Position numbers and translations under genes: made by a program. This document shows, one piece after another, positions 1-48,870 of a stretch of DNA of 64,000 nucleotides. The DNA comes from Boswellia sacra (taxonomy: Eukaryota; Streptophyta; Magnoliopsida; Sapindales; Burseraceae). The stretch is taken from positions 62,001 to 126,000 of the forward strand of contig SNVD02002370.1 in the NCBI GenBank assembly GCA_013180625.2, given 5' to 3'. How positions within the stretch are numbered: position 1 is the first letter of the stretch; each line of letters opens with the position of its first letter. Under the pieces are notes generated by a model. The model saw only the letters and a list, made by a program, of their open reading frames with translations, did not search any database and was not told where the DNA came from.

Positions 1-42
1 AGTGAAGTCTTTCTAAGTACATAGAAACAAGAAAATGAATTA

Positions 43-2555
43 CCTTGACTCAACCTCACTCCTTGTACTCACAAGAGTTGTACTCAGTGGAGTTCTTCCT
101 CCCCTGCCAAAGGCAACCTTCATTAATTTTTGTTGCAAATTTTTAAGATCTTAAAAGTATATGAATAAACAAGTTGGACAGATACCAGAACTAATTTTGG
201 TTGAATAGTCTTTAGCAAAGGTTGAACTTTCTGTGGCCTACAAAAGAATATTACAGTTAGTTTTTAAGTTGAACTAATTTTGCTGTATTATAGTTAACTA
301 AAGAGCAAAGACCAAGGGTAAAAAATAGAGTAATAAATCCAATTCTTATAAGCTTACGAGTAACATCAGTGCACCACCACAAGTGAGAGGTTCCACCACA
401 AAAGCAGCAACTACAAAACACCCTAACTTGAGGATCTACCTCACACTCTATCAAACAGAACAGGTCTGTACTTAACAATAAAAGACCCAGAACTAACCCA
501 TTGTCAAAATGGCCATACCTCCTTTGCAGCATCAATGCTTTTGCAGACAAAAGTTGAACCAAAAACATATTCCATAGCACTCTGCAAGGTGAATCAACTT
601 TCAAACAGACAAAAAACAAGTGGAAGACAGAATATGAACTGCCAGTATTTACATTCTGATAATCCAAAATCTAATGGTTCAACTCATCCATTTATCACCA
701 CACAATGAAACAACAATAATTTCCACAGTAAGCTTTAAAGTTCTGGACCTCAATTGTTAAATGTTAAGGCACGAAACAAAAAGCTTTGCAGGTCTTGCTA
801 CAAAAAAGACCAAAATAACCCAAAAAATAAAACTATATCTTCAGCAGTAGATATCATGAAGCATGAGGTGATTGGGTTTAAAAAGATAAACAAGTATAAC
901 GAAGCATACCTTCAATTCATCATCATAACCAACCAAAGAAAGTGCTAGTTCTGCATTTTCCTTGCCAACCTGCATAAGCAAGGGTAAAATTCGTACATGG
1001 AGGGTAGAAAAGGATTTGTAACTCTCAATCATAGGAAAGGTCAAAGCATTGACTAACCACTCTAAAAGCAGCCCGCTGAACTCTAGGATGAACAGTATTG
1101 GATTGAATTTTATTTAAAGGTATAATTGTTACTCTCCTCCGAAGATCACCATTTTGAAGCAATTGTTTTCCAATATTTTCAGTGTCTACAATAACATTAA
1201 ATAATTTTCCACCAGTAGTCACTTGCAATTGATTTCATTGTGAAGAGTGAAGTTTTTTTTTTTTGACAAGAAAAAAAAGTTGCTAACTGTGCGGGATAGA
1301 GATCTGAATCTTTAGTTATAAAACCAACAGTAGGATGCTCATTACTGACCTCTAAGCCAATCATGGTGGAGCTATCTTTTACTTTGATGAGTTTCAACCA
1401 CACCCTTCACCTTTGACATATCAAAATTTTTCACAGGATCACGATATGTGAACTGTACATTTGCTAACTGTGCGAAGAGATCCCGTATTTCATCTTTCAA
1501 CTTTTGCACCAGCTCCATCTCAGATGCCCGGTCCTGAAAATATGACATTGTGAATGAATGAATTTAACCAAAAAGAAAAATTCCATCTATCTACTTGGCA
1601 AATGTAAAACAACAAGAGAAAATTATTCCTTCTGTAAAGCTTCCATCTGCCCCTCTTTATACAGAAGAGACTCCATAGCCAGTTTAACATTTTCCACATC
1701 TTTTCTTCTAGCATTCATTTCATTCTCCACAGCAAGAGCTTCCCCACATTTTGACATTAACTGATTTTTTTTCTCTCCAAGTTCCTTCTCACAATGGCTT
1801 ATTTTAGTTTTCAGTTGTCTTAGTTCTGTTTCAGCACTACCAACAGAAACCTTGGCATCACCTAGCTGATCTTCAAGGCATTTCTCCTCGTTTCTGCTGC
1901 TCTTGCCAGCTAGTACACCCTACACCAAGAGCAGTTACAACGGCTTTCTTTATACAACTTGGTTCACTGACAAATGACAGCAATAAAAAAGTCAATGGGC
2001 TAAAACAAACAAAGCCAACATGTATAGGGACTCCTTACCTGGTATTCATTTTCATTATCTTCCAAACTCTTAGAAAGTTCCTCAACTCTCTTTTTGAGAT
2101 CAGCTGCTCCTTCTTCAGACTTTCTGATAGCAGAGGCCTTCTCTTCTACAGATTGCTTCAGCTCTTCAATAATGTAAACAATCTAGCAACATTAAGATCC
2201 ATAGTCAAATGTGGAATCAGCAAATGGCAAAAGAGAGAGAGAAGATGCAAAGAGAATAGAAGACTTCAATAAATAGTGCAGCAAGTAACTAACACTGAAA
2301 AGTACATGACAAGAATTAAGAGTTTGAGAATATAAGCACCTTTTTAGCATTCTCTTTTTCACTCCTGAGAGTGTCATCCTCATTATTTAATACAGACACG
2401 TCACAGAAAAGATCTTGAGAAAGTGCATCAACTCTCACAGATAAAGTTTTTACTTCCCCACCCATGCTGGCTTCCTTTTCAGCGGTCTAGCTTGACACTT
2501 ACTTTTCCATTTCCTGTATTTCCAGCTGTGTCCGTTCTGTACTTATTCATAATAA
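43..2555 (-). pseudogene. SMC2: SMC2 (condensin subunit) fragment, frameshifted
   Basis: SMC2 is the CAP-E type ATPase of condensin and compacts chromosomes. Only the late N-terminal coiled coil and the hinge are present here; the ATPase head domains are absent. Exons read on the minus strand from about 2,555 (LEIQEMEK), 2,486-2,340 (SMGGEVKTLSVRVDALS), 2,182-2,039 (SEEGAADLKKRVEELS), 1,919-1,629 (GVLAGKSSRNEEKCLEDQ), 1,533-1,350 (LANVQFTYRDPVKNF), about 1,222-1,058 (GKQLLQNGDLRRRVTIIPL), 969-910 (NAELALSLVGYDDELK) and 581-519 (AMEYVFGSTFVCKSIDAAKE). A possible further exon at about 43-140 (VAF.R..RTP) is weak. After KVKGVV the frame is lost by what looks like a 2-nt deletion, and a stop follows within seven codons. 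The donor after 1,629 reads GA instead of GT. A captured, non-functional fragment is the best reading. Confidence 0.85.
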
Positions 2556-3348
2556 TTCAACCTTCAAAAGAATAGAAGGAAGCAGAAAAAACAATGGTGC
2601 TTTGTATCCTGTAAGTTACAAAATGTGAAGGACCATGACGACATGGATGATCATCAACCAAGATATATGTGCATGGAGAACACTCCTCTAGCATCTGAGA
2701 AATCCGCTTGCTTGTAACCCGACTTCCAATCTATTCATAGTTTAGAATGACAAAATCAATAGGAAAGAATACATTGACCATGCAATCAGCACATATGACA
2801 GAGTCCAAAGGTTATCAAAATTTTCATAACGGTAGCATGCCTGTTATGTTATTTAGCTCGTTTTTAATAAAACGTATACTTTGTTTAAACTTCCAGAATA
2901 ATTTCCATTATATTTAAAAAGGAGGATGCTTAGGGAAAACTTGTAGATTTATGAGTCGGATAATTATTAACTTTATTTAAGAGATTTTTATTCGTGAACT
3001 CCAAAAATAACAAATGCAGTAGTATAAATGAATTTAATATACATAATGTTATATATAATTATTTTACTTTAAGAAGTTTTCTGTATAAAATATTTCAATA
3101 AATGTGTACTAATTTTATACAAAATTATTAATAACAATCAAATCATGGCTAACTGTCACCTCAATAAACTCATCCTATCTCGAACCATCTTCTAAATTTT
3201 GAATAACAAGTTAGGGTGGACTGCAGGTGTATTTAAGAGGCTTAGGATGGTTTTAAGCAGGAACATTTTGGCATCCCTCTTCCAAATGTCTTAAATGCCT
3301 AAAGGAGTTCCCTTGAACTTATACATAATCTGCAAATTTAGTGAAAGA

Positions 3349-5256: not shown

Positions 5257-5535
5257 TTGTTTCTTGGTCACTTTACTGACAAGTTTTTAAGCTCTTCTTT
5301 ATCTACATGAGAATCAGCCAACAAGAGTGGATGGTGTCTTCTACCTTAAGGATCTAAAAAAAGGAAAGAGGTTTTGATCATCGCTTCTCTATGAGTACTG
5401 GGTAAAGGTGAAACAACTTGCCTTTGAGTTTGGTGCTTTCAGCATTTTGACCAGTCAGTTATTCATTTAGTCCTCATTTTAACTTTAAAAGATAAAAAGT
5501 GTTAACCTCTATACAACACACAGTTAAACATGCTT
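5257..5535. repeat. 279-bp direct repeat, copy A (inside a PHYLLO intron)
   Basis: This segment begins TTGTTTCTTGGTCACT and ends TTAAACATGCTT. It is repeated in the same orientation at 8,993-9,270 with only scattered mismatches. Copy A lies within the long intron between the MenD exons at 5,637 and 4,251. No terminal inverted repeat or pol III box is evident. It may be an unclassified short mobile repeat or a local duplication. Confidence 0.9.
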
Positions 5536-8500
5536 CAGGGACATCAACTGGGATATGGGAAACATGAGGGTAGAAGTTTATGGAATGCTGAACATTCATG
5601 GAAAATTTATAATTTTGTTTTTTGAACGAAACTCACAGCAGGAAGTAGATTTGAAACTGCAGTGCTTGATGATATTATGATAACTGCAGGTTTGTGAGAT
5701 CCTCTTGCATAACCAACAGCATGAAAAGCAAGTGAGCATTCATAAAAGCAAGCAACACATGTTGTTAGAGGATAAGTGGAAGCAGCAACAGCAAGGGGAG
5801 AGGATCTTAAACCTGGGGCTATATAGAAGTACTGGAAGATAAAGAATTAATCAGAAGCATATACCAAAACAGATATTGAAAACATTGTCCACATTTAAGC
5901 TTACCGTTAACCCCAGACGAGAATATTCTTCAATTAAAAGTGATGCCCAAACAGCATTGATATTTGCACAATCCCACAAGGAAAAATTCATTTCACTAGC
6001 ATGATCCAACTGATAGTCAAAAGAGATACAGCTTGAACAATTATAATCCAAATTTGTTTCTTAAAAGCATATTAAAAGGTTCCAATATCAGCATCAGTTG
6101 GTATCCCAGGTATGCATATTGGACTCATTGCTTTTAAGCAAATTCATGTGATAGCAAAACATGCAGTTAACAACAAATTCCATAACGATTAGCATCCAAA
6201 AGTTAACGCAAAGTACAAAAACAAAAAGGCAGAGAGCAGCCTCAAAGCATAGGACAACTGAGTCAAAGTTAAAAATATTTTATTTTAAAAAGGAAGGCTC
6301 CTTTAAAAATAATAATTAATGTAAAAAAATAAATAAATAAAAAGAGTTTTTAAGGACCATTGTGAGGTTTAGTGGTAGAAGTCACAAAGTCTTCACAGCA
6401 AATTTACCAATTGGAGTCTCGCAATGGGCATCCTCATGTAAAATGTTTAGGTTCAGTCTCAATCACCATCCTACTGCAAAAAGGCCACTAATACGTGCAG
6501 TTGTACAAATTAAAAATATTCAGAAGACAGATCTAAAGAGAAGTTGTATGAACATACAAGCACAATCTACTAAAGCAATATTGATGCATAAAGGTGACCA
6601 GGCAGATTTGGAATTTCTAATATGAAATGAGCTCAACCCAAATAGTACCTCCAGCCTTGACCAAGAACCCAATCTATGGAACGATGAGAAAATTTTAAAA
6701 ATGATAAAATCATATTTGTATGCACTAGTAATATTGACACTGTAGCAGTAATATTAATTCACTAAGTATACCATTTGAACAGTTCTATCATCCACCATGT
6801 TAAGCTTTCTTACAGCAGATCTTATATATTTGGAGTTGTATCTCTCTGCAGTAGGACAAAAATGGTAATTGACCTGAATAGAGATAAACAAAAATATAAA
6901 AATTACTATGATTATAGAAGTAGATAAAAAGCGAATATCTTGTACAACTCTAACAACAAAAGAGTGAATCAAATATATCAAGAAAGTCATTGGTCTGAAT
7001 TGCACGAGTATAGATAGATACCCAAGCACTCATATATATACAACCAAGACATCAAAATCAACATAAAGCTGGTCATGATAATAACAAAAATCAACATCAA
7101 AACGTTAGTATTTTTGCCTGTACATTTTCTTTTTCAAAAACCAAATAACCAATTTGTATAGTTTAATCTCATAAAGAATTCATAAATTCCTCATATCAAA
7201 TTTATTCTAAAATATAAATTGATATTAAAAAAAATGAATGACCAACCTCAAACTACCTGAGAAAAGGATGACTCATAAGATTGAACGGCCTACTCAAATG
7301 TACAATTTAGAGCAGTGACGGTGTTGCTGCCAAGATAGAGACATCCTCTTGCTCATTTAACTCTATCTGTTGAAACAATTAATTTGTTTTTAGAAAGATG
7401 TAAAACAATAGCACTTCTTTCAGCCAAAGCCAAAGAGATATGTAGATGTCAAGAGCAATAACATACACCTCACAAAGTTTAAACAATGATCACAATCACA
7501 AGATCAGTAGAAAATGAATAGCTGCATAAATAGACACGTGGAAGAATTCTAGTCTACCTCAGGAACAAAAAAGTAGAAAGAACCGGCCTCATGCTTCACA
7601 GAAGATGACTCTGTGTCAAAATTAATATCCATAAAACCATAGGTTGTTAGAGGGATCGAATTGTTTGAGAGATATCTGCAAGCAACGACACATAAATTTT
7701 TTAGCTCTTCTCATATGAAGTCAATAACCATGTTGAAAAAAAAAATTTAATATAATATTCCCGAACTAAAAACTAAAAGTTTGCCTTGCTTCTGCTAATA
7801 GGAGACCCAAAATTCACCATATTCTATATTAGAATAGTTAAATAGGAAGGATAACGAGACAAACTTGCTCTATATTGTGTAGTAGTCTTGGACAAAATTT
7901 TGCAATTCCGAAGAGTAATTAGAAGGGAACCGAGAAATGTGAAGTTATGAAAATATGATTAACCTTTTCGGCATGCTACTCCCTCTTGGGGCACTTAAAG
8001 AGGAATGGGTAAAGTAAATAGCAGCTCCAATTCCAAACACTCCACGGGTTTAATTCAAATACAGTGATTTACAATTTGGGCTCTCCATTTCCTTAGAAAG
8101 GAAAAATACAGGAAACACACCCGATGACTTTGGTTGATTGCAAAACCAATTCAAAGTTTTCGCACTTCGGGGCACACCACCTGCAAATGCCCAATCACGT
8201 TACTTACAAGTCCAGCATAATTCCAAGTTCTCCACCTATTAACGTATAATTACTGTGTTCTCTGTTTTTGTTTCCCACATAAAATTAATGATGATGCTAT
8301 AGATGTACAATAAAAATGGAAACCAGATAGCCGAATCCCCCGAAATGTATGTAGCTGCTAAGAACTAGAGTTCCCAAAACAATGTGCATTGATTATATGT
8401 GAAATACAACTATTACTTTAATACGAAACAAAAGAAAATAGTGAAACGTAGTACGTGAATATAAACTTTATATAGCAAAGAAAGGCATAATTAGTCATAC

Positions 8501-8992: not shown

Positions 8993-9270
8993 TTGTTTCT
9001 TGGTCACTCTACTGAAAAGTTTTGAAGATCTTCTTTATCTACATGAGATCAGCCAAAAAGAGTAGATGGTGTCTTCTACCTTAAGGATCTAAAAAAAGGA
9101 AAGAGGTTTTGATCATCGCTTCTCTATGAGTACTAGGTAAAGGTGAAACAACTTGCCTTTGAGTTTGGTGCTTTCAGCATTTTGACCGGTGAGTTATTCA
9201 TTTAGTCCTCATTTTAACTTTAAAAGATAAAAAGTGTTAACCTCTATACAACACACAGTTAAACATGCTT
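8993..9270. repeat. 279-bp direct repeat, copy B (just upstream of the PHYLLO start)
   Basis: This is the same sequence as 5,257-5,535, starting about 29 bp 5' of the PHYLLO ATG on the gene's strand. Its position would suit the PHYLLO 5' flank being duplicated into the intron, or a repeat inserted twice. Either way it marks the edge of the captured PHYLLO fragment. Confidence 0.9.
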
Positions 9271-9683
9271 AAGGAGATAGCAAATCAAAGATGCAATCAG
9301 CTTTCCTTTTTAATTGATTGGAATCAGGGTGCATTAGCTTCCCTAGCTTCAATCAAAGGTTTCAGCAGCACATTGCTGGATTTAGCATAGCTAAAGATGG
9401 AAAAGACTTGAAAATAATTACCCAGGATATTGTGCAGAATAACAGGGCAACATCAGTCGATGCAAAACAAAAATTCAAAACTCAAGCCTTCTCCCAGTGT
9501 TAGTAAAATTTCATTGGTAGGTACTATTTTGAGACCCAAATGTCATGGAGTGTACCACTTCGGTGCTAAAAACCATGGAGAATGTCGCCTACAGGGATCT
9601 ACTTGCACATAGTTTAACATCAATATACAGGTGGATAAAATTTTACATTCACTGAACATAGAGAACCAAAAAAGTGAAATTAC
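9271..9683. other. No recognisable gene
   Basis: This stretch links the repeat upstream of PHYLLO to the metal tolerance protein fragment. Short open frames here show no family resemblance. The downstream exons expected for the metal tolerance protein are not present. Confidence 0.5.
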
Positions 9684-33977: not shown

Positions 33978-34450
33978 TTAACAAGTGGGTTTCTTCTTTC
34001 TAGGAATTGCAACCCTCTTACCCTTCCGGGTCCTAGCATTAGTGCTGGTTCACCATCCTCTGCATGGTAATCCTTGATAATGCCTAATCCCTCTATAGCA
34101 TAGTATGTCAACCAATCTTCCAATGTCATTTTTTATGCATCACCTCTGAAACACCCAAAAGAAAATTCGTTGTTAATAGGAAGTCCCGATTTACAGAAAA
34201 CAAGAGAAGAGGAGAAAGCTAACTAGATCTTCTCTAGTTAGGTATCTTGAAACTTCCTTACGAAGAGAGTTGAGTTCCACTCCAGTTAAGTCTTTGGTGA
34301 GTTTGTTCCCAATGTTGAGGTCACAGAGGATCTGGTGAGCACTAGAGCGACCAACTCCGTAAATGTGCTGAAGAGAGACTTCAAGTCTCTTGTCATTTGG
34401 GATCTCTGTGTTTCCCACACGAAGGCATTGTACACGTAGGCCATGAAATT
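33978..34450 (-). pseudogene. RPS13: Plastid ribosomal protein S13 fragment captured by CACTA
   Basis: S13 is a small-subunit protein at the head of the 30S ribosome. Exon 34,450-34,224 reads RVGNTEIPNDKRLEVSLQHI then YGVGRSSAHQILCDLN, the conserved N-terminal helix-hairpin part. Exon 34,145-33,978 reads CYRGIRHYQGLPCRGW, a TGA stop, then TSTNARTRKGKRVAIPRKKK and the natural end. Expected GQRTST became GW-stop-TST. The transit-peptide exon is missing. The splice donor after 34,224 (GTTAGC) and the acceptor before 34,145 survive. The nuclear-encoded plastid form is the best match. Confidence 0.88.
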
Positions 34451-34767
34451 GCAGAAAACAAAATGACTTCAACTGGTTAAATCATGATTATTCAAACTGT
34501 TATAAAGCATATCTACGGACAATGAATGCCCTGTATCCAGAGTAATTATCACTTGCAACCCAAAAAATTAACAGAAGAACTCAACTAAGCCGGGTTTATG
34601 TGACCTCCTGCACCAACATCAAACACCCAACATCTATTAGAATTATAAACTGAAAAGGCTGAAAAAAAATTAAATAAATAAAAGAAAAGGTTGAGAAATC
34701 GCGCCCAAGATGCCAGCAGTGCAGTAAACTAGAGCGAAGATCATGCTACCAAAGGCCTAAGAAATAC

Positions 34768-34990
34768 CTTGAATCCCAACTGATTTACACTTAGTATCGC
34801 TCCTGAGCACGCCCATAACAGTCAAGATAGTGATGTACAAAAAGAGAAAAGTGGCCACGAACTCAGCGATCCTAGCCCTGTAAAACGACCAAGACGTGAG
34901 CTCGCTAGGCTTGAAAAGTGGAGCCAGTGGCGGCTCAATGTAATCCTTGCCATCTTGGCTCTGCGTAGTTGTTCCAATCAGTGCGACCGA
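34768..34990 (-). pseudogene. Aquaporin PIP first-exon fragment captured by CACTA
   Basis: PIP aquaporins are plasma-membrane water channels. The frame reads [18 protein letters not shown], then [20 protein letters not shown] (first membrane helix), and [16 protein letters not shown] before a GT donor at 34,767. The match is to a PIP2-type protein. Exon 1 is open, but both NPA loops and five helices are missing. A start codon of the native gene is not evident upstream; a frame with an unrelated N-terminus runs to 35,050. Confidence 0.88.
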
Positions 34991-35419
34991 GCTTTCATAG
35001 GAGATAATGGCGAGTGTGTATGAGGAACGGTGCGACGAAGGGGGAAGCACGAGGTTGAAAGGTTAAAGGACGAAGGGTGCGACGAAGGGGGAAGCACAGA
35101 TATTCAGGAAGCAAAATTAGGGAAAAAATTGCAGCTTTGGGCGAGAGAGATTACAACTTTGGGCGGAGAAAATTGGGGAAGAAAAATTAGGGATTTGAGA
35201 GGGAAAAGAGGGAAAAGTTAGAGAGAAGCAGGAGAATGGGCCAAAATAAGAAAAAAGTTGATTATATTACGGTATTTTACTGCGGGCCACAGAACCACAG
35301 TAAAATCTGTAATATCTACTGTGGGCTATGAAGCCCGTCGTAAAATTTTAATTTTTACTGCGGTTTTAGAGGCCCGCGATAAATAGACGCAGTAAAAATC
35401 TCATTTTCTTGTAGTGTAA

Positions 35420-36611: not shown

Positions 36612-38030
36612 TGTTGAAACCCAAAATATACCGCGATTATTATAGTGTAAGTTGAGGTGTCGAATCCATAAGGAGGCTTTCAACAAAAGAGGTTAGTAAA
36701 AAAAAATACTAAAAAGACAATAAAGACATAAAATTTAACTTTAAACTGATTTGTTATAAAGAGACTACAATGCATAATAATTGGAAACAATCGATGGTAA
36801 TTAAGAGGTAAGGCATCAAGAATCACTTATCTATTTTGCAAATCTAATCCCCATTTTGATTCAATAATTATAACTCAATTGAAAGTTTCACATCCCAAAC
36901 AATCAATCAGAAAATATGTATCGTAAAGCATAATTGATAAACACATATAGTTGATATGGACAAACTCTTTACAAGCAATTTTTACCAACAACGTTCATCC
37001 TTATAAGTTATCCAATAGCGACAATATATCAATTGACAATATTGCTGTAAAAGACTAACTCATAAAACGAAACTCCTAATAACAATTATAATTTGACACG
37101 AATCACATAAAGAAAGCGTGACTGAATTTACATGAAATTGAGAATTATAATTTCTAGATTAAAGAGAAATCACAAGATGAGAAAGAGTTTAACACGTAAA
37201 CAAACATACAAAGTTTATAGCCCTTGAGGAAGAATTTAAGTAGAGAAATAGATAAACTACACATAAAAGTTCATCTCTAGCCTTAGCAAGAATTCTAGCC
37301 TAATTTACAATTGATTCCCATCATTTCTAAAGAGAAAATACAAGCAAGAATTGTAATATACAATGATATAATGAAATCCAAAGGATTTTTTCTCCTCTCC
37401 CATTCAACTCCTCAAGGTGTCCTTATATAGATGATTAAATGGAACTATTTTAGTATGAAACAATCTTCCACATTTTCGGCCACCAAACCTTCCACCAAAT
37501 TACAACACATTTTTTGCTACCACAATTGAATTAGGCTTTGTGGAAAACATGAAAGTTGTAGCTTTTTGTCTCATCTTTCCATGGCCACCACATTCATGTA
37601 ATTTGGACAAGTCTTCTATGAGATATGATCAAAACACTGAACATGGGTTGGGTTAAGCAACAATTATAGTTTAGTTTTATTGTGTCTCAATTTCGGCCAA
37701 TCAAATGTTGGATTTGGGCTCTTGATTGTTCTTCAATGATGTGTAGGATTGAGTCATGTTACTCCAAGTTCAAGAATCTCTTCATTTTGATTTATAGCTA
37801 GATTGAGAGTTATTTCCATTTTGTTAGACCTACACAAAGATTTCTATTAATCACAATTTAAGGACAAAACTTTATTTCAAGATAAAGACAAAAAAAATGT
37901 AAAAGAAATGAAACAAATGTAAAAGAGGCATAAGCAAAATAAGTATGCTAAAATATCATAAAAGTTTTACAATATTTACCAATTAGCATTAATTATTTAT
38001 GCTTAAGAGTGTATTTTTATGCGTTTATCA
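36612..38030 (-). mobile_element. Athila 3' LTR
   Basis: 1,419 bp. On the minus strand it starts TGATAAACGCATAAAAATAC and ends ATTTTGGGTTTCAACA. It is colinear with 47,158-48,516. Confidence 0.92.
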
Positions 38031-38046
38031 CAATCCCCAGCCAACT
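38031..38046 (-). promoter_or_regulatory. Polypurine tract of the Athila element
   Basis: On the minus strand GTTGGCTGGGGATTG abuts the 3' LTR start. Its core GGCTGGGGA is the Athila-type plus-strand primer. Confidence 0.75.
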
Positions 38047-39434
38047 TATTGCTAGTCCATAGCAATTCAACCGTAAATGAAATATGAAGAACTACTTCAG
38101 CATTTCAAACAAAAAGGCAGTTCAAGATCATAGTTGCTATAAAGGTTATTTCAATCATAACTTTCAAAATTGAGTGCATGTGAATCAAGCCGAAACCTTC
38201 CTACAACAAACCACAACACATATAGCCTTGAAAATTACTACATGTAAAAGCCTCAACTTCATTTCCTCATAGGTGAATAACTATTTAAACAAGCCAAGAT
38301 TTTTCTCATGGAGTTGGAAAACAGATAAGCACTCAAGAAAATGTCACATTTAAGGATAGATAGAAAAACTAACATTGATCCAAAGATAGAAAAATCAACT
38401 GTTTATAATCAAACCATTCTTGCTACATGCCAGCTTTAAGACTTCTTTCATCTTAAGTGAACAAAAATAAAAAGAGCTTGGTGAGAAAGATTGCTTCATA
38501 AAACTTTTGTCTTATAAAATTGAATGAAGACATTATTGAACTGAATTGACTTTTCTTTTTTTTTTTTACTCTTTTTTTTGTCTTTGTTTTGTTTTGTTTT
38601 GTTTTGGAAGAATTGAAATTTCACCTTGCATCGTCCTTTAGCTAAACAACCAAATAATCCCTCAATCCGAGTAATGACATTCTAAATAAAGATTAACCAA
38701 TTCAAAGGATCAATAAAAGTTCGTAAGCTATTTTCTCAACCTCTCCACTCACTCACAAAAGATGTGTGAGATTAGAAAACTGTAAACTTAAACATAGGAA
38801 TTCTCTTGGCTATATACGTTGAATCATCCATCTTACCACAAGGCTTATCGTTGTACTTAAAATAATTTCAGAATTCATTCTTTGATAACCTAAATAGAAA
38901 AGGTGACTCAAACCAAACAATTTTGAAATCATACCTCGATAGAAAAAAAACCCATTTACATAAGAATTACAGAGAACACATGCAATAAACAGTTGTGCAT
39001 GATATACAACTCAAAACTAAAAACAAATCAAACTAGTTAGAATGCATTTCAAAAGGTAGAAAATTTACTCCCTACTCTATGATTCTTGATCTAATAGATC
39101 CAAAATGCATCTCAAGAGATAATGCACTCTTTACTCTGCAATTCTCAACTAATAGATTTGTTGGTTGACTTGTTAACAATTTTTTTTTTGAAATGCAATG
39201 CAAAACATAACATATGCCTATTACCTAGCCCCAAACAGATCAAAACATTGTCCTCAATGTTTAAATGTAGAAAGAGAAAGTATAGGAGACATCACCTGAA
39301 GCTTCAGTTATTAAAAAGAAACAAACCTCAAAGACACTTAACTAAAAATAAAATGTTGTGAACAAAGCCAAAAGTAAGAAAAGTTACAAACAAAGCGTCA
39401 GATCCGATTCGTGCTTATTGTTCATTCCCATTGA
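38047..39434. other. Athila 3' untranslated region
   Basis: AT-rich DNA with a T-rich microsatellite (TTTTG repeats near 38,580-38,605). I see no env-like frame. Confidence 0.6.
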
Positions 39435-40027
39435 CTAGTCAATTTGAGATGCTGCACGGTCAGGTTCATAAGAAAAAGCTTGTAATTTATCAATTAGTTC
39501 ATCAGTAGTTGAGGCAAAAACAAGGATCCGTTGTGTCGATTGTGAGATAAAACTCTATTCCACAGCTTGCTTAACAAAACACAATAAATAATCAAAGAAA
39601 TTATTGACATTCAACAAACCTATGGGTTTCTAGTGGATATTGACTTGGGCCCAAGAGGCAACTCGAAAGATTTCTTCCAATGTTCCAAAACCTCTTGGTA
39701 AAGCAATAAAGGCATTTGCATTTTGAATCATACAAGCTATGCGTTCATGCATGGATGAGACCTGAAATTCCTTCCTAACTATTCTCTCAGTGATGCTAAC
39801 TAAAGCTTTAGGGATAATACCTAAAACTTGACTTCCTCCTGCATATGTAGTTGTTGACACACACTCTACTAACCCAAGGTTACCTCCCTTTTAAACTAAA
39901 TGAAGTTTTCTTTGAACTAGAACCCTACCAAGATTGTGAACTACTTCTCCAATGCTATATTTTTACCAAGCTGAGATCCACAAAATACACATATATTTCG
40001 AAATCGATAAGCTAAGATTCCCTCCAT
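39435..40027 (-). pseudogene. LOG: Intronless LOG (cytokinin phosphoribohydrolase) retrocopy inside Athila
   Basis: LOG enzymes release active cytokinin bases from riboside monophosphates. The copy starts at ATG 40,027 (MEGILAYRFRNICVFCGSQL) and continues without any intron: VVHNLGRVLVQRKLHLV, KGGNLGLVECVSTTTYAGG, SQVLGIIPKALV, ALPRGFGTLEEIFRVASWAQ, KPIGLLNVNNFFDYLL, and STTDELIDKLQAFSYEPD, ending at a TAG (39,435) in place of the usual Trp near the C-terminus. The catalytic PGGxGTxxE motif reads PRGFGTLEE. Plant LOG genes normally have several introns, so a spliced transcript is the likely source. There are a frameshift after IALE and several in-frame stops. It lies on the element's own strand between integrase and 3' LTR. 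Confidence 0.88.
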
Positions 40028-40382
40028 TTTGATACAACTCACTAACTATGTATATGCAAATGAAGAACATGAGATGTATTTATAGAATGTAAAAAGGTGT
40101 TACAAGAATGACATCTGTATAGGTAGCTCAACTGTTTGTCTGATAAATGTTGAAAATAAAAACAAATAAAATAAAATAAAAATAGGAATTCAAAAATAGC
40201 GGCAACCGTGCATATGTACAGATAGTTGTGCTTGTGGCTCACATCATCCTCTAGTTTTACGTTTAGTAAAGCCTAAAACAGCTTTTAGGAGTTGGGGATA
40301 TGCTTCCCATCTGATTTTTTTATAAATTGGCAAACAGGGTCGTTATGAGTCAGATTCCCAAACTATAGCGTTCCTGCTCTTC

Positions 40383-40745
40383 TCAAAATTGTGTCCATAA
40401 TTTTAAAATCTCTTGGTGAACAATTCCACAAGGATGTGTCTCAAGAGTCAACAAGATATTATTTAGAGATTCCTTACTCAGTCCATCCTTAATGAATTGA
40501 ATCTTATCTTCTCGATTTACAGACACAAATCCTAAAGAGCGACATTGCTTGTTACAGGTCCATCGTGCATATTTGTGACAGACTTGTAATCTATTTGCTC
40601 TCTGCTTTTTCTCATAAGAGCTTTTACTCAAACCAAGCATAAAGCAAACAAAGGTTTTTGAACGTTCACCAGATAATCAGACCTTGGCTTCAATTAACCA
40701 TTGTAAATCAATAGGTAAACCCATGAGCATTAGCAATTTTAGCCT
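40383..40745 (-). pseudogene. Unidentified intronless coding unit upstream of the LOG copy
   Basis: About 120 codons with one internal stop. It reads LLMLMGLPIDLQWLIEAKV, stop, LSGERSKTFVCFMLGLSKSS, then VCHKYARWTCNKQCRSLGF, VNREDKIQFIKDGLSKESL and LLTLETHPCGIVHQEILKLW. The cysteine pairs suggest a small metal-binding segment. Composition looks like a real protein. I do not recognise the family. It could be a second captured host transcript, or an ORF native to the 3' region of this Athila subfamily. Confidence 0.5.
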
Positions 40746-41149
40746 CTCAAACCGTGCTTATAAATTTTTAGTAATGCATTTGGAGGAAGAAAAGGAAAAT
40801 GTTTACGAAGTTTGAAATAATTGTATCCATTTTGAAAGAGAAAAGATGAATGCATGATTTTTGTTTGGGTTACAATTTTTAGGGAACTAGAAAACCAACT
40901 TTAATAGTCATGGAGTACTGCATCTGCCACTTGACCGGGAAATAAAATAAAATATGCAAAAGAAAATAAAAGTAAACACAGAAAATAAAGCAAAAAAGAT
41001 GATGCAAACAGATAATAAAAGCAAAGACAAAGTCAATATATGGTGCAAACAGATAATAAAAGCAAGACAATGAGATAATAAAAGCAAAAAAAAAGTCAAG
41101 ATATGGTATAGATAGATCAAATAGATAAAACCTGGTTAATTATGATAGA

Positions 41150-42077
41150 CAGGAGGCACAAGAGAGATCTCCTTGAGACACATAAATTGGCTTTCCCTTT
41201 CCACAAAATTTTTCAACCGTTGGCTATTAACTTTGAAAATTTGCCCATCAATGGGATCCTCAATCTCAACCGCTCCATTGGGAAAACGTGCTTTACCATA
41301 AATGGCCTAGTCCATCGAGATCTTAACTTTCCAGGGTGTAAATGCAATCAAGAATCATAAAGATAACCTATTGATTTAGCTTAAAGTTTTTCCTCAAGAT
41401 TTGTTTGTCATGAGCTGCTTTCATCTTAGCTTTGTAGATCTTGGAGTTGTCATAGGCATCATTTCGCAATTCTTCTATTTTTGATAATTGTAACTTTCTT
41501 TGAAGACCTACAACACTCAAATCAAAGTTAAGGGTTTTAACGGCCCAATAAGCTTTATGTTCTAGCTCAATGGGTAAATGACAAGCTTTCCCATAGACAA
41601 GGTGATATGGAGACATTTCTAGGATAGTTTTATAAGCAATGCCGTATGCCCATAATGCATCAGAAAGGTGTAAAGAACAGTCTTTATGATTCAAGTTAAC
41701 GGTCTTTTCTAGAATCTGCTTGATCTCTCTATTTGGGAGCTCAGCTTGCCTATTTGTCTGTGGATGGTATGCGGTGGAAATCTTATGAAGAACACCATAC
41801 CTGCACATTAAAGCTTCAAAAGAACGGTTACAGAAATGTGTCCCTTGGTCACTGATGATGACATGTGGAGTACTATACCTAGACAACATGTTTTTAAGAA
41901 ATTTACCACTATTGTGTTATCATTAGTACGACAAGCCACAACCTTCACCCATTTGGACACATAATCAACAGCTAGAAGAATATAAAGATAACCAAAAGAT
42001 GTAGGAAAAAGTCCCATAAAGTCAATACCCAAATAGGCAAATATCTCAGTAACAAGAATAAGGTTAAGAAACATCAT
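41150..42077 (-). pseudogene. Athila integrase
   Basis: Frame 42,077-41,890 reads GIDFMGLFPTSFGYLYILLA and DYVSKWVKVVACRTND, holding the first core Asp (GIDFMG). A frameshift leads into 41,889-41,368 with [19 protein letters not shown] (second Asp) and [20 protein letters not shown] (the third acidic residue region). The C-terminal GPF-type module continues to about 41,160 in other frames (LHPGKLRSRWTRPF). The core is recognisable; the frame is not intact. The N-terminal zinc finger region to about 42,500 is too broken to read. Confidence 0.88.
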
Positions 42078-42524
42078 ATGATGGCAAGATAAAGCACCGA
42101 ACTTTGGACTCTTTCACACAAATGACAAAAATTGTTAGTATCTTTGAATGAAATGGGCCAGTAGAGTCCACACTATAAAATTTTTGTGGTAGACTTTTTT
42201 ATTGACAAATGATCACCACAAGCAGCACTATGGCAAAAGTTTAAGACAATAGCAATTTCACTGTCATGAATGCAACGCCTCATAATTTGGTCAGGGCAAT
42301 ATAGAAAAGATAAGGATCATCCCTATAAAAATTACACACCTCAACCAAGAACTTATGCTTATCTTGTACACTCCAATTAGATGGATCTTTTTCGAAACCA
42401 AGTAATTTACAATATGTGCATAACAAGGTCTTGGCTTACAGTGAAAAGATGTTCATCAGGGAAATCAACTTGAATGGGTTGGACATTAGTGGAATCATGG
42501 AATCAAGACGCGATAAATGATCTG

Positions 42525-42764
42525 TTACGATGTTTTGACACCTTTCTTATCTTTAATGGTTAGATCAAATTCCTGCAAAAGAAGAATCCACCTAATTAGA
42601 TGGGCTTTAGCATCCTTCTTAGAAAAAAGGTACTTAAAAGTTACGTGGTCAGTAAACACAGTAATAGATGAATTAATTAAACAAGAATGAAATTTGTCTG
42701 AGGCAAAAATAACATCTAATAGTTCCTTTTTAGTAGTAGAATAATTCATTTGAGCATCATTCAA
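42525..42764 (-). pseudogene. Athila RNase H relic
   Basis: [20 protein letters not shown] and [20 protein letters not shown] match the RNase H of Gypsy elements, including the usual TTEKE-like and TDH landmarks. The first catalytic Asp region to its right is interrupted. Confidence 0.85.
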
Positions 42765-42937
42765 TGTCCTACTAGTATAGTAAACAACAAAGGGTTTCGC
42801 TTCCCTTCGTTGACAAGGACTACTCTTGTAGCATAGTTATTGGCGTCACACATAATCTCAAATGGAAGGTTCCAATCAGGTGACTACATAATAGGAGCAG
42901 TGGTAATTTTGGTAATTAGTGTTTGAAACGATTCCTC

Positions 42938-43771
42938 TTAAGCTTGAGTCCACACAAATTCGACATCTTTTAATAAGAGGTTACACAATGGTCTAGATAT
43001 AAAAGAAAAAATTTGTATAAACCTCCTACAAAACCCAGCATGCCTCAGAAAAGATCGGACATCTTTTATCATTTTGGGTATAGGTAATTTACAGATCAAC
43101 TCGATTTTAGCCTTGTCAACCTCCATTCCTCTTTCTGAAACAATGTGTTCCAAAACAATCCCAGAAGACACCATGAAATGACATTTTTTCCAATTAAGCA
43201 CAAGTCCTTTTTCTTCACACCTACTTAAAACAAATTTTAAGTTAAGTAGACATGAATCAAAAGAGTTACCAAAAATAGTCAAATCATCCATAAAAATCTC
43301 CATGCATTTTTCAACCATGCCTGAGAAAATACTAAGCATGCAACATTGAAAAGTAGCTGGTGCATTATATAATCCAAATGGCATCCTACGAAAAGCATAA
43401 GTACCGAAAGGGAATGTGAAGGTAGTGTTATCTTGATCCTCTACAGCTATCTCTATCTGGTAATATCTTGAGTACCTATCGAGAAAGCAATAAAAAGGGT
43501 GGCCAGCTACATGTTCCAAGATTTGGTCAATAAAAGGCAATGGAAAGTAGTCTTTTCGAATGGCCATATTTAATTTCCTATAATCAATGCACATCTGCCA
43601 TCCGGTTACTACCCTAGTTGGAATAGATACTCCTTTATCGTTTTGAACCACAGTTACTTCAGATTTTTTAGGCACTACCTGTGTTGGACTTACCCATTGA
43701 CTATTAGATATTGGATAGAGTATACCTGTATCTAACAGTTTTAAGACTTCTTTCTTTACCACTTCTTTCAT
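42938..43771 (-). pseudogene. Athila reverse transcriptase
   Basis: This 277-codon open frame has VVPKKSEVTVVQNDKG, GWQMCIDYRKLNMAIRKDYF, PFGTYAFRRMPFGLYNAPAT and EIFMDDLTIFG, the FMDD active site. The palm residues FLDRYSRY and FMDD are kept, although FLDGYSGYNQ is changed to FLDRYSRYYQ. The linker region with HVVSxRGxEVDKAK and the connection domain (VRSFLRHAGFCRRFI) follow. It is the best-preserved coding stretch in the window. It is broken from gag-protease upstream (43,808-44,339 in other frames). Confidence 0.92.
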
Positions 43772-43807
43772 TGTTGGGTTAAGTCTTCTTTGGGGGTCTC
43801 TACAAGG

Positions 43808-44650
43808 TTAGGTACCTTCCTCTAGATGGATTCTATGGGAAAATATTAATGGAGAAATACCTTTAATATCAGCTATTTTCCAACCTAGTGCAGACTTTTG
43901 TTCTTTTGACAAGTTTATCAATTTTTCATCTTGTTCAACACTAAGTTCTGAAGAAATAATAATAGGAAAGGTATCACCTGCTCCCAAGAATACATGCTTC
44001 AAACCTTTGGGTAGTGGGGAAAGTTCAACTTTTGGTGCCTTTAAGTTAGAGGGTTTTGGCTTCTCTCCTCCACGAGGCAATTCTTCAAAGCGTTCAAGTT
44101 CTTTTATCCTGTGAGTCAAAAACACCAAACACATTAGTCATATCATCAGGAAAATATAAATCTTCAAAATCAAAATCAAGAAGGAATTCTAAAGAGTCAG
44201 AATCCTGTTTTCTATAAGCCTCCTCTGAGATAAGCGTGCCTATCATATATGAATGGTGGCAGTCATCCTTCTCTTGTTGTCGCTTTCCAATATGAAAAAT
44301 ATTCACCTCAAGAGTCATATTCGCAAATGATAATTTCATATACCGTTCCTACAATTAATAAGAGCGTTAGCAGTGGCAAGAAAAGGTCTTCCTAAAATAA
44401 GAGGGATTTTGGAGTCCATATTAACCACAGACTAATTATCCAAAACAAGAAAATCAACAAGGTAATAAAATTTATCAATTTGTAATAGAAAATCTTCCAC
44501 TATTTCACGTGTTTTCTTGACTGATCGATTGGCCAATTGTAGAACTATGAATGTGGGTTTGATCTCTCCAAGTCCTAATTGTAAGTAAACAGAATAGGGC
44601 ATGAGATTGACACTTACTCCCAAGTCTAATAATGCTTGATTGAATTCACG
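43808..44650 (-). pseudogene. Athila protease and linker
   Basis: Near 44,640 the minus strand reads LLDLGVSVNLMPYSVYLQLG. DLG(A/V)S is the protease active-site triad of Athila. It is followed by LQLANRSVKKTREIVEDF and, after a TAG-type break, the ILGRPFLATANALI block (about 44,390) typical of the end of the domain. The linker to reverse transcriptase (ELSPLPKGLKHVFLGAGDTF near 43,990) is open but in a different frame. Confidence 0.85.
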
Positions 44651-44965
44651 TGTCCCGATCTAGTAAGAAATTGTAGGACACCTTAGATCTTTGTACTTGG
44701 CTGATGCTTTCTATTCAATTATTGCACTTACCTGTTTCGTCAAGAATGCAGTCTTCTTGACACGGTGCTTTCTTCTGATGGTGCATAGATCCTTGATAAC
44801 TTTGGCAAAAGCCAGAACCTATTTAATTACATGCAACAACAGAAGATTAATCTTAACTTGTTTCAAGTGTTCTAGAATCTCATTTTGAATTTTTGAGTTT
44901 TTCCTATTAGATTTGAGAGCTTGGGGAAAAGGCACCTGGATCAAAAATTTCTTTTCAAGTTCTTT

Positions 44966-46515
44966 CTAAAAAATGTCCTCCTTTTGTGGGGGAATATCTT
45001 TGTTTTCTATGGTTGTGTTGATTGGCAATGCAAGCTCATTTAAAATCTTATGACTATGAGTAGTAATGGCATTTACCACTTCAAGATTTTGTGTGTCAAA
45101 AGTAGAGGCTTGTGCCATATGTTGCCCTCTTGGATTAGACTGAGTTTGAGATGGAAACTTACCTCTCTCTTGTATGGTCAAAGCATTGGTTAGCTTAGTG
45201 ATTTGACGTTTGATCTCCTTGTTCTCTTCTACCACTTGTGCAAGAACTATTTCAAATTTTTGGTTAGTCTTATTTGGGCCTCCATAAATGCTTGTAAGGT
45301 GTCCTCTAAGGAATTCCTAACTTGTGGTGCATTGTATTGAGGTGCTTGATAAGACGTGGGTTGTTGTTGTTCCTGTTTCCATTGGTTGTTGTTTTGGGGT
45401 TTAGATTTCCAACTAAAGTTTGGGTGGTTTCTCCATCTAGGGTTATAGGTTTCAGAATAGGGTGAATAAGGCTTTTTGTACATCCCTAAGGCATTACATT
45501 ATTCCTCATACACCCCTCTCATCTCACTATAAGTTAGGCAATCCTAAGCTTAGTGTTCCACCCCTCCCAAACAAAGCATGTATCTTGTGATTCAACCTTA
45601 GCTACCGTGTAGGTGACCTTCCTATCTTTGGTTTTCAAGGCTTCCAATTCTGTAGTTAAGACTTCTAATTGGGCTTTAAGGTTGTCATCTTCCCTAAGAT
45701 GGTAAATTCCACTAGGTCGTGACCTATTTGTGCTATCAGTAGTGCTAGGTCTAGTCCATGTGTGGGCTTTTTTAGATAAGTCTTTGAGGAATTCTATGGC
45801 TTCCTCGGGTCTTTTTGAAGGAACTCTCCATTACACATCATCTCAACAAATTGGTGCTCCCTAATTGTGAGTCCCTCATAGAAGTAACTAACCAAGTGCC
45901 AATTTTCATACCCATGATGAGGACACATGTTTAACAACTCTTTAAATCTCTCCCAGGTTTGGTACAACGCTTCACTATCTTTTTGGGAGAAGAAATTTGT
46001 CTGTTTAGGCCATTAGTCTTATGTTGTGGGAAATATTTGTTGAAAAACACTTGGGTCATTTCTGCCCAAGTTCCTATGGATCTTGGCCTTAAAGAGTATA
46101 GCCAACTCTTTGCTTTGTCTTTTAGAGAGAAATGAAAAAATTTTAACCTAACAGAATTTATGGCATTGGCTTGACTATAAAAGGTGCCCACTACTTCTTC
46201 AAATTTCCTAACATACACATAAGGGTTTTCACTATCTAAACCATGGAAAGAGGGTAAAAGATATATCATCCCTGGGCGAAAGTCCAACTTTGGTATATTG
46301 GGTGGAAATATGATACATGATGGTGTGGCTGTGCGGGTAGGAAGCAAATAATCTTTTAAAGTTTTAACGGGGTTATCCTCATGTTGGCTTATTGTATCAG
46401 AATTAGGAGATGAAGATGAACTAAGAATTGGGTTTTCTTTAGTTGTAAAATCTAGTTGTGGTTCTAATTCTGATTTCTTCATAAATCTCCCTCGTTTGTC
46501 TCTAGATCGCTTCAT
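44966..46515 (-). pseudogene. Athila gag
   Basis: It starts at ATG 46,515 (MKRSRDKRGRFMKKSELEPQ). The capsid landmark SFHGLDSENPYVYVRKFEEV and FFHFSLKDKAKSWLYSLRPR, SIGTWAEMTQVFFNKYFP are clear. The frame breaks at about 45,931, and later parts (44,966-45,483, Gln/Asn-rich) continue in other frames. The start codon follows an AT-rich leader. Confidence 0.88.
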
Positions 46516-47132
46516 ACATCCTTACAATTTGTCTCTTTTTTTTTTTGCACAACAAAATTCTCAAATAAAGTTAAAAAGCAATAAGATAAAAAAGTTAGAG
46601 AGAAGAAGAGAAAAAAAATAAAACAAACTAGGTGGCAAAGCCAACCTTTGACAAGTATATGCAGAATTTAAAAAAAGGAAATAAAATAAAAGAAACAAGG
46701 TAGCAAAGCTAACCTTTCAAATATAAAACAAGAATATTAAAACACTATAATTTAAAAAGTTAGAAGTTAGGAAGATAAAAAAAAAAAAATAGGTGCGTAA
46801 AAATAAAAGTAAGATGTGCAAAAATAAATGTTAGGTAAGAAAAAATAAAAATTAGATGCATAAAAATAAAAGTTAGGTGCGTAAAAATAAAAGTTAGATG
46901 CGTAAAAATAAAAAGTTAGTACAAGAATAATTAAGACAACAAAATATTAAAAAAATGAAAAAGAAGAGAATAATAATTAGAGTTAGGCAAGATTAGGAAA
47001 AGTTAGGCAAAGTTAGAAAAAGTTAAGAAATTATTTAAAGCAACAAAAAAAAAAGAAAAGAAAAGAAACTAAGAGATGAAATTTTACAAGAAAAAGAAGT
47101 AAAAAATATAAACCATCTTTCGTCTATTTCTT
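46516..47132. repeat. Athila leader with short tandem repeat
   Basis: An untranslated leader between primer binding site and gag. Between about 46,785 and 46,920 a 19-20 bp unit, GTTAGGTGCGTAAAAATAAA with variants, recurs about five times. Related GTTAGGCAA/AGTTAGAAAA phrases follow to 47,030. Confidence 0.75.
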
Positions 47133-47157
47133 CTCCCTGGCAACGACGCCAAACTTT
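47133..47157 (-). promoter_or_regulatory. Primer binding site of the Athila element
   Basis: On the minus strand TTTGGCGTCGTTGCCAGGGA follows the 5' LTR. It matches the Athila site (TGGCGCCGTTGCCGGGGA), complementary to a tRNA-Asp 3' end, with two differences. Confidence 0.88.
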
Positions 47158-48516
47158 GTTTACGCCACAAATATACCGCAGTTATTATACCATAAGTTGA
47201 GGTGTTGAATCCACAGGGAGGCTTTCGACAAAAGAGGTTAGAAAAGATAGTAAAGACATGATTTGTTATAAAGAGACTACAATGCATAATAATTGGAAGC
47301 AATCGATGGTAGTTAAAGGGTAAGCCATGGAGAATCACTTACATGTTTTATAAATCTAATCCCTACTTTGATTCAATAATTATAACTCAATTGAAAGTTT
47401 TACATCTCAAACAATCAATCAAAAAATATGCATCGTAAAGCATAATTGATAAACACATGTATTTGATTGCATAAACTCTTTATATATTTATCAACATCGT
47501 TCATCCTTACAAGTTATCCAAGAGCGACAATATATCAATTGAAAATATTACAGTAAAAGATTAACTCATAAAACAAAACTACCAGTAACAATTATAATTC
47601 AACACAAATTACATAAAGAAAGCATGATTGAGTTTATATGAAATTTAGAATTATAATTTCTGCATTAAAGAGATATCACAAGATGAGAAAGAGTTTAACA
47701 CGTAAATAAAACTTTATAGCCCTTGAGGAAGAATCAAAGTAGAGAAATAGATAAACTACACATAAAAGTTCATCTCTAGCCTTAACAAGAATTCTATCCT
47801 AACTTTCAATTCATTCCTATCATTTCCAAAGAGAAAATACAAGCGAGAATTGTAATATAATGGAATCCAAAGGTTTCTTCTCCTCTCCCATTCAACTCTT
47901 CAAGGTGTCCTTATATAGGTGATTAAATGGAACTATTTTAGTATGAACCAATCTTCCACATTTTCGGCCACCAAACCTTCCACCAATGTTCAACACATTT
48001 TTGGCTACCAAAACAATTAAATTAGGCTTTGTGGAAAACATGAAAGTTGTAGCTTTTTGTCTCATCTTTCCATGGCCACCAGATTCATGTAATTTGGACA
48101 AGTCTTCTATGAGATATGATCAAAACATTGAACATGGGTCGGCCTAAGCAACAACTACAATTCAGTTTTGTTATGTCTCAATTTCGGCCATCAAATGTTA
48201 GATTTGGGCTTTTGATTGTTCTTTAACTTTGTGTAGGATTGAGTGATGTTACTCTAGGTTCAAGAATCTCTTCATTTTGATTTACAGATTGAGAGTTATT
48301 TCCATTTTGTTAAAGCTACACAAAGATTTTCATTAATCACAATTTAAGGACAACACTTTATTTCAAGGTAAAGACTAAAAAATGCAAAACAAATGAAAAC
48401 AAATGTAAAAGAGGCATAACCAAAATAATTATGCTAAAATATCATAAAAGTTTTACAATATTGACCAATTAGCATTAATTATTTATGCTTAAGAGTGTAT
48501 TTTCATGCTTTTATCA
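47158..48516 (-). mobile_element. Athila 5' LTR
   Basis: 1,359 bp. On the minus strand it starts TGATAAAAGCATGAAAATAC and ends TTGTGGCGTAAACA, abutting the primer binding site. It is colinear with the 3' LTR, but the terminal 15 bases next to the PBS differ markedly. Confidence 0.92.
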
Positions 48517-48870
48517 CCTGTACTGAGGGTATAGTAAAGAACTTAACAATGAAGCCCATTAACTCAACTTAGATCTCCTTGAGGAAGAAAGAGATCTTAC
48601 AAGAACAAAGTTTCTGCTTACCAGGAGAGGGTTGCCTGACACTTTAACTATAAGTTTAAGCGCTAATCCTTTTAGGAGGGAGATTTTGTTTCGAGACAAG
48701 TACTACAAAACACCGAAGATCCCACTGATGGAGCATTGGGACCTAATTCAGAGTATCCTTATCAAGTCAAAGCAGTCATCCGACTGGGCACCTATGGGTT
48801 TGTCACAATGGATAGGTGTGAACAAGGCTTTCATCCCACTTGAGTGTTTGCGACCATAAAACTATGTCAA
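48517..48870 (+). pseudogene. Tat-lineage Gypsy integrase relic, part 2
   Basis: Directly after the Athila target duplication the plus strand reads LNLDLLEEERDL-like NLDLLEEERDLTRTKF, then in another frame GDFVSRQVLQNTEDPTDGAL, GPNSEYPYQVKAVIRLGTYG and FVTMDRCEQGFHPT. This is the C-terminal GPF/Y-type module of Tat integrase, so the Athila element split this gene. The 75-codon open frame 48,632-48,859 is a shadow of it. Confidence 0.82.

Follow-up and report, generated by a model that had tools for sequence, protein, structure and literature searches.

The locus studied here raises the question of how an intron-free copy of LONELY GUY (LOG), the gene for cytokinin riboside 5'-monophosphate phosphoribohydrolase, came to lie inside a plant LTR retrotransposon, and whether it is an accident of one insertion or a gene belonging to the element. 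Host genes picked up by plant LTR elements are commonly regarded as short-lived passengers, and a reading made from the sequence alone had proposed a one-off capture by this very element. Starting from the window, by which we mean the whole 64,000-nucleotide stretch of Boswellia sacra DNA analysed, we found instead an accessory gene that the lineage acquired earlier and has conserved, of a kind reported in other plants. It is very likely that the LOG belongs to an Athila-type LTR retrotransposon lineage, which captured it as processed RNA and mobilised it. The features on which the argument rests are listed in the table.

Features of the LOG-bearing element in the window
Feature	Position	Strand	Evidence or remark
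Ty3/gypsy element, Athila type, complete but decayed, 11.9 kb	36612..48518	-	LTR pair, PBS, domain order, target duplication
5' LTR	47157..48518	-	1362 bp; 90.5% identity to the 3' LTR over 1359 columns, K2P 0.102
Primer binding site (PBS)	47134..47151	-	16/18 bases of the tRNA-Asp-type 18-mer
gag remains, fragmented	45537..46521	-	PF03732, E=1.1e-9, and 7.9e-5 just below cut-off
Reverse transcriptase	42941..43807	-	PF00078, E=1e-22
RNase H	42528..42836	-	PF17917, E=2.7e-21
Integrase core, two broken pieces	41371..42113	-	PF00665, E=1.5e-6 and 0.013, both below cut-off
Broken NABP-like accessory gene with two premature stops, in three frames	40288..40813	-	72% identity to P0121 residues 26-159
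LOG retrocopy, broken	39384..40027	-	Pfam, tblastn, plant LOG alignment
Remains of C-terminal LxLxL (EAR-like) tail, SDLTLCL plus stop	39384..39407	-	compared with relatives' tails
CATTGAGGACAATG, inverted-repeat-like backbone motif downstream of LOG	39246..39259	-	exact in L001 at 2576 and in 13/20 fetched copies
3' LTR	36612..38032	-	1421 bp

The element has the ends TG...CA and a target duplication (CCTGC/CCTGT) in which four of five bases match. Its coding frames are broken up; gag, reverse transcriptase, RNase H and integrase follow one another in gypsy order, and a protease piece matches weakly (E=0.022). A Pfam scan of nine open pieces, in an element whose decayed stretches could hide more, found neither a chromodomain nor a second RNase H (aRH), the latter of which would place the element in Tat. 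A primer binding site complementary to tRNA-Asp is linked with the Athila lineage, and the 18-mer that we take as the tRNA-Asp-type reference occurs exactly downstream of the 5' LTR in the sister copies L031, L032 and L033. The RT-RH-INT order between LTRs, the two missing domains and the primer binding site all point to an Athila-type element, in agreement with the sequence-only reading. At substitution rates of 1.3e-8 to 7e-9 the LTR distance corresponds to an insertion age of 3.9-7.3 million years, and we regard the window copy as a dead member inserted roughly 4-7 million years ago.

Within this element the LOG remains align to plant LOG without introns, on the element's strand and between integrase and 3' LTR, exactly as had been described from the letters. 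Their largest open piece matches PF03641 (E=1.4e-17, 64.6 bits against a cut-off of 27), and tblastn with P0002 gave 66% identity (E~1e-77), and 74% in an additional N-terminal piece. The copy had also been called full length with its end at 39435, but it is broken by one frameshift (located between 39959 and 39947) and four premature stops (39891-39893, 39630-39632, 39555-39557 and 39435-39437); the C-terminal tail lies beyond the last of these, and the true end is at 39384. In this broken copy the PGGxGTxxE site reads PRGFGTLEE.

LOG had further been assigned to the place of an env-like gene. Homology gives a different arrangement, in which the integrase is followed directly by the gene that we call NABP and LOG comes downstream of it; an env-like protein at the LOG site was rejected because homology there is to NABP and LOG. 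Two further pieces of the window NABP match P0121 (182 aa). The window's own broken piece scores 15.1 bits, below the cut-off of 23, and the identity of the gene is taken from intact relatives of about 182 aa, in which the domains Carla_C4 (PF01623) and Viral_NABP (PF05515) exceed their cut-offs in six and five, respectively, of the six tested, at moderate scores of 21-34 bits. Relatives occur in many plant records, and the best 120 of 304 matches all carry PF01623 by our reading. Judged by these relatives, the gene would encode a carlavirus-type nucleic-acid-binding protein: it has in common with the Cys-rich nucleic-acid-binding proteins of carlaviruses and mandariviruses the sequence domain and a basic patch followed by a Cys-rich stretch, whereas it is retroelement-encoded, has its own length and moderate scores, and is known here from sequence. 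Its structure model was poor (mean pLDDT 49) and was left unused, and scans of a viral contig set found no relatives of either LOG or NABP. Athila elements with extra or env-like ORFs at the 3' side, in the portions of PMC6317226 and PMC7264820 considered, have in common with the window element the RT-RH-INT order, a tRNA-Asp-type primer binding site, the lack of a second RNase H and chromodomain, and sense extra ORFs between pol and the 3' LTR; in the window element these extra ORFs are NABP and LOG, and none of the window pieces scanned matched Athila ORF1 (PF03078).

The borders of the LOG insert became visible by comparison with L001 (positions 1-3330), which carries an integrase and a NABP of the same kind (the window integrase pieces are 62.6% and 59.2% identical to its integrase and the window NABP 75% identical to its NABP in DNA) and no LOG within the 983 bases following NABP. 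Past the window LOG, homology to this LOG-less contig restarts at CATTGAGGACAATG (E about 1e-6), and NABP and this motif are 229 nt apart in L001 versus 1029 nt in the window. LOG therefore reads as a discrete module bounded at about 40152 and 39300. L001, a single contig, either never had LOG or has lost it. It is DAIEQH010000041.1, filed as a Candidatus Nomurabacteria MAG; its sequence reads as plant retrotransposon DNA, and it is therefore probably plant contamination in a bacterial MAG.

We searched the 638.6-Mb assembly containing the window for other copies. With the PF03641 profile, all 150 matches scored out of 10,198 first-look candidates (which are unverified as copies) were single-exon, with the full domain in one frame and free of stops; a host-LOG query, scored for 150 of 13,083 first-look candidates, gave matches 51-57% identical to Arabidopsis LOG3, eight of them with an internal stop by our own count. 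Cluster member counts were not taken for copy numbers, because clusters of host LOGs also reach 186-225. Twenty copies were fetched, not at random but from among the top PF03641 scores and from long contigs with room around the match. All span LOG residues 8-210 or more, with small frame breaks in three, and in 19 of them NABP lies upstream on the LOG strand, the exception being L028. A window-like integrase piece falls within five of the fetched stretches, which start just about 2.7 kb upstream of LOG. Three contig sizes common to the LOG and NABP match lists (2128, 4511 and 8723; chance of at least three, 0.0035 under length jitter), with a fourth, 905, too short for both genes, also support the pairing, weakly, and are superseded by the NABP genes seen next to the fetched copies.

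The ends of these elements show that LOG has moved with them. Aligned to L018, 14 of the 19 other copies lose homology at one common 3' LTR position (give or take a base), and 13 of them continue into different flanks, the next 20 bases differing in all; L026 ends together with L015 in like manner, and no L018-type end was found in L017, L021 and L029. A shared end at position 5275 of L029 is not that of the element, and the LTR ends defined by L018 and L015 replaced it. For four copies we also retrieved sequence further upstream. Three of these have LTR pairs 97.7, 98.2 and 95.9% identical (the 1.4 kb compared in L018 being most of an LTR with an extra stretch near its start) and an exact 18-base primer binding site after the 5' LTR, and comparison of the upstream piece of L029 found no LTR pair. 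L015/L032 has a perfect 5-bp target duplication, GAGAG, and in L026 three of five bases match by eye. The LTR distances of the three dated copies (K2P 0.019, 0.016 and 0.040) correspond to about 0.6-2.9 million years. From position 6812 of L028 onward (LOG strand) an LTR runs directly into the primer binding site of another element, which suggests two tandem elements with one LTR in common. LOG thus occupies one position in copies whose flanks differ, the outcome that the sequence-only reading had named as the sign of a mobilised gene. The LOGs of this genome form three families (that of the window, that of L015/L026 and a large one with L029); several element families carry LOG downstream of NABP, and LOG has been copied around with them.

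Two native LOG genes of the species, L038 and L039, have seven exons over about 4.5 and 3.8 kb. Because the element LOGs are single-exon, the comparison shows that their source was a processed, intron-free RNA of a host-type LOG, and the proposed capture of a spliced mRNA held up. Capture of spliced RNA and subsequent mobilisation are well supported by these seven-exon genes together with the shared position and different flanks. Both events predate the window insertion, as follows from the native genes, the uniformly single-exon matches and the NABP upstream of nearly all fetched copies. The route by which the RNA entered is a separate matter: a LINE may have placed its LOG retrocopy downstream of NABP, before the 3' LTR of an ancestral element, which then mobilised it. 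A processed-RNA source fits this route and template switching alike, and the capture is too old to decide between them, because with breakpoints bracketed only by the module borders given above any poly-A, target duplication or microhomology is unreadable; we give the LINE route somewhat less than an even chance.

The association probably reaches beyond Boswellia. The element-type LOGs group as a single clade, separate from those of hosts and bacteria, with support of 100/98 in a tree whose bootstrap was not fully settled. It comprised 113 of the 120 listed element-type proteins after filtering by length (two, P0101 and P0072, were removed by hand), 25 host LOGs (every fifth of 120, which makes 24, and Arabidopsis LOG8) and two from bacteria. 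The listed names include Xanthoceras, Melia, Diplodiscus, Pterospermum, Populus, Parasponia, Primulina and Rehmannia, genera that we take to belong to several eudicot orders, a spread read from the genus names given with the LOG proteins. Judging by their names, the seven loci listed for Diplodiscus are spread over six chromosomes. Each of the three Boswellia families groups with proteins of other records, at unstarred forks (95/68, 94/90 and 93/95), and the window species itself may be the source of some of those records. Both old vertical descent and horizontal moves of LOG-bearing elements are possible. The poplar LOGL10 model P0053 falls within the element-type clade and may be a retroelement gene; some other LOG-like gene models in plant genomes may likewise be, which is of practical importance for annotation.

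That gypsy elements can contain a LOG domain is already known: PMC9289625, in the section compared here, describes YgdH (LONELY GUY) domains in Ty3/gypsy consensus sequences of Citrus sinensis and C. clementina, and in Ty3/gypsy of Populus trichocarpa below that study's filter, a result given there as in line with Steinbauerova et al. 2011. Those elements resemble ours in being plant Ty3/gypsy LTR elements with a LOG-family domain, which several of the consensus families contain; compared with that section, Boswellia adds the neighbour gene, the C-terminal tail, the insertion site and the comparison with native exons. Among the matches listed in literature searches on carlavirus-type proteins in LTR retrotransposons and on EAR/TOPLESS with retrotransposons, titles and abstract openings contained no report of the NABP-LOG pair or the LxLxL tail; Steinbauerova et al. 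2011 may hold more. The part of PMC7264820 considered states that transduced aORFs in plant LTR elements occur in one or few copies.

A LOG captured once and then amplified could still be of no use to the element, its conservation reflecting recent descent and the choice of high-scoring copies. The three dated copies are indeed recent (LTR K2P 0.016-0.040), the copies were chosen by score, and the relative L001 has no LOG. A full open LOG ORF (by our own criterion) is present in 14 of 22 loci. In the large family, 12 open copies (66 pairs) give a mean dN of 0.026, a dS of 0.150 and a ratio of 0.176, and NABP, whose frame is open in just four of the 20 fetched copies, gives 0.23 over 6 pairs, values that can be lowered by sampling on score and openness, which over-represents open, conserved copies. 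L015 and L026 differ by three replacement and four silent changes in LOG, and between families dN is 0.23 against a dS of about 1.2. These figures argue that the sampled LOG copies have been under purifying selection and count against a useless passenger, as does an active site kept across a deep clade: the residues R and E and the motif PGGxGTxxE, which we take to serve in the LOG active site, are present in 114, 119 and 106 of the 120 listed element-type LOGs, versus 120/120 for both residues in host LOGs, 11/120 of which likewise lack the motif (14/120 element-type). The predicted LOG model (mean pLDDT 85) matches the fold of Arabidopsis LOG3 (E=1.3e-23). Element LOGs thus have fold and active site in common with plant LOG1/LOG3, whereas the latter have seven exons in Boswellia, no LxLxL tail and a place outside the element clade. 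We consider the passenger explanation improbable.

The tail itself suggests another possibility. An LxLxL motif occurs within the last 25 residues of 93 of the 120 listed element-type LOGs (27 are without it) and in none of 120 host LOGs, a set of those nearest to LOG3, which under-represents other LOG subfamilies; shuffled versions of the two sets of tails give an expectation of 8.7/120 and 0.16/120, respectively. All 14 open LOG ORFs of the Boswellia genome have it in their last nine residues, and the native L038 and L039 lack it, ending in DISR. In an early branch of eight listed proteins, of which Xanthoceras accounts for five, the tail is basic and lacks LxLxL, and the motif may therefore have been added after the capture. 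The motif suggests an EAR function, and binding of TOPLESS is rather doubtful. The element might then use LOG as a scaffold or decoy, the tail recruiting or titrating TOPLESS co-repressors and the enzyme fold serving as a stable carrier. The distribution of the motif, the basic residues that precede it and the predicted disorder of the tail would fit such a role, but a pure scaffold would not need the active-site R and E, which are nearly always kept, and leucine-rich composition accounts for some of the motifs, as the shuffled tails show; we think this unlikely.

That a LINE merely copied LOG mRNA into the already inserted window element, with its own target duplication and poly-A, has a negligible chance despite the intron-free, dead window copy and an A-run about 200 nt past it, as this is refuted by the single-exon sister copies at the same position, behind NABP and in different flanks, and the A-run, rejected as a retrocopy tail, lies outside the insert in backbone common to the LOG-less L001, which also has one.

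We thus return to LOG as an old, mobilised accessory gene, a reading in which we have high confidence: the many copies in sister elements, usually beside NABP, indicate that the element family adopted LOG earlier and kept it. The few open NABP frames, L028 without NABP and the related L001 without LOG speak against it. In active elements, LOG would be made from a 3' message and, with its active site kept, release free cytokinin, which might hold the host cell in a dividing or meristem-like state, in which a retroelement has a better chance of entering the germ line; that cytokinin activation is what is selected seems to us an even call. TOPLESS-type co-repressors are possible partners of the tail, and NABP might shield the RNA of the element or suppress silencing, by analogy with the mandarivirus protein of PMC12172455 (as described in the part of that paper considered). 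Tentatively, the lineage may have kept a cassette of NABP and EAR-tailed LOG after pol across eudicot orders, blunting silencing and rewiring hormone output and TOPLESS repression. If so, this would be a retrotransposon with a virus-like module for host manipulation. A captured LOG maintained as at least 150 stop-free domain matches in one genome, beside a plant-virus-type gene and with a tail absent from the sampled host LOGs, makes it possible to test whether plant retrotransposons manipulate host hormones and co-repressors as viruses do.

Two minor observations concern the surroundings of the element. About 1.6-2.4 kb beyond it lie pieces of host genes on the minus strand, at 34191-34472 and 34757-35050, that resemble plastid ribosomal protein S13 and a PIP aquaporin exon (names given by eye). 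Elsewhere in the window, a 283-bp direct repeat of 96% identity occupies 5257-5539 and 8993-9274.
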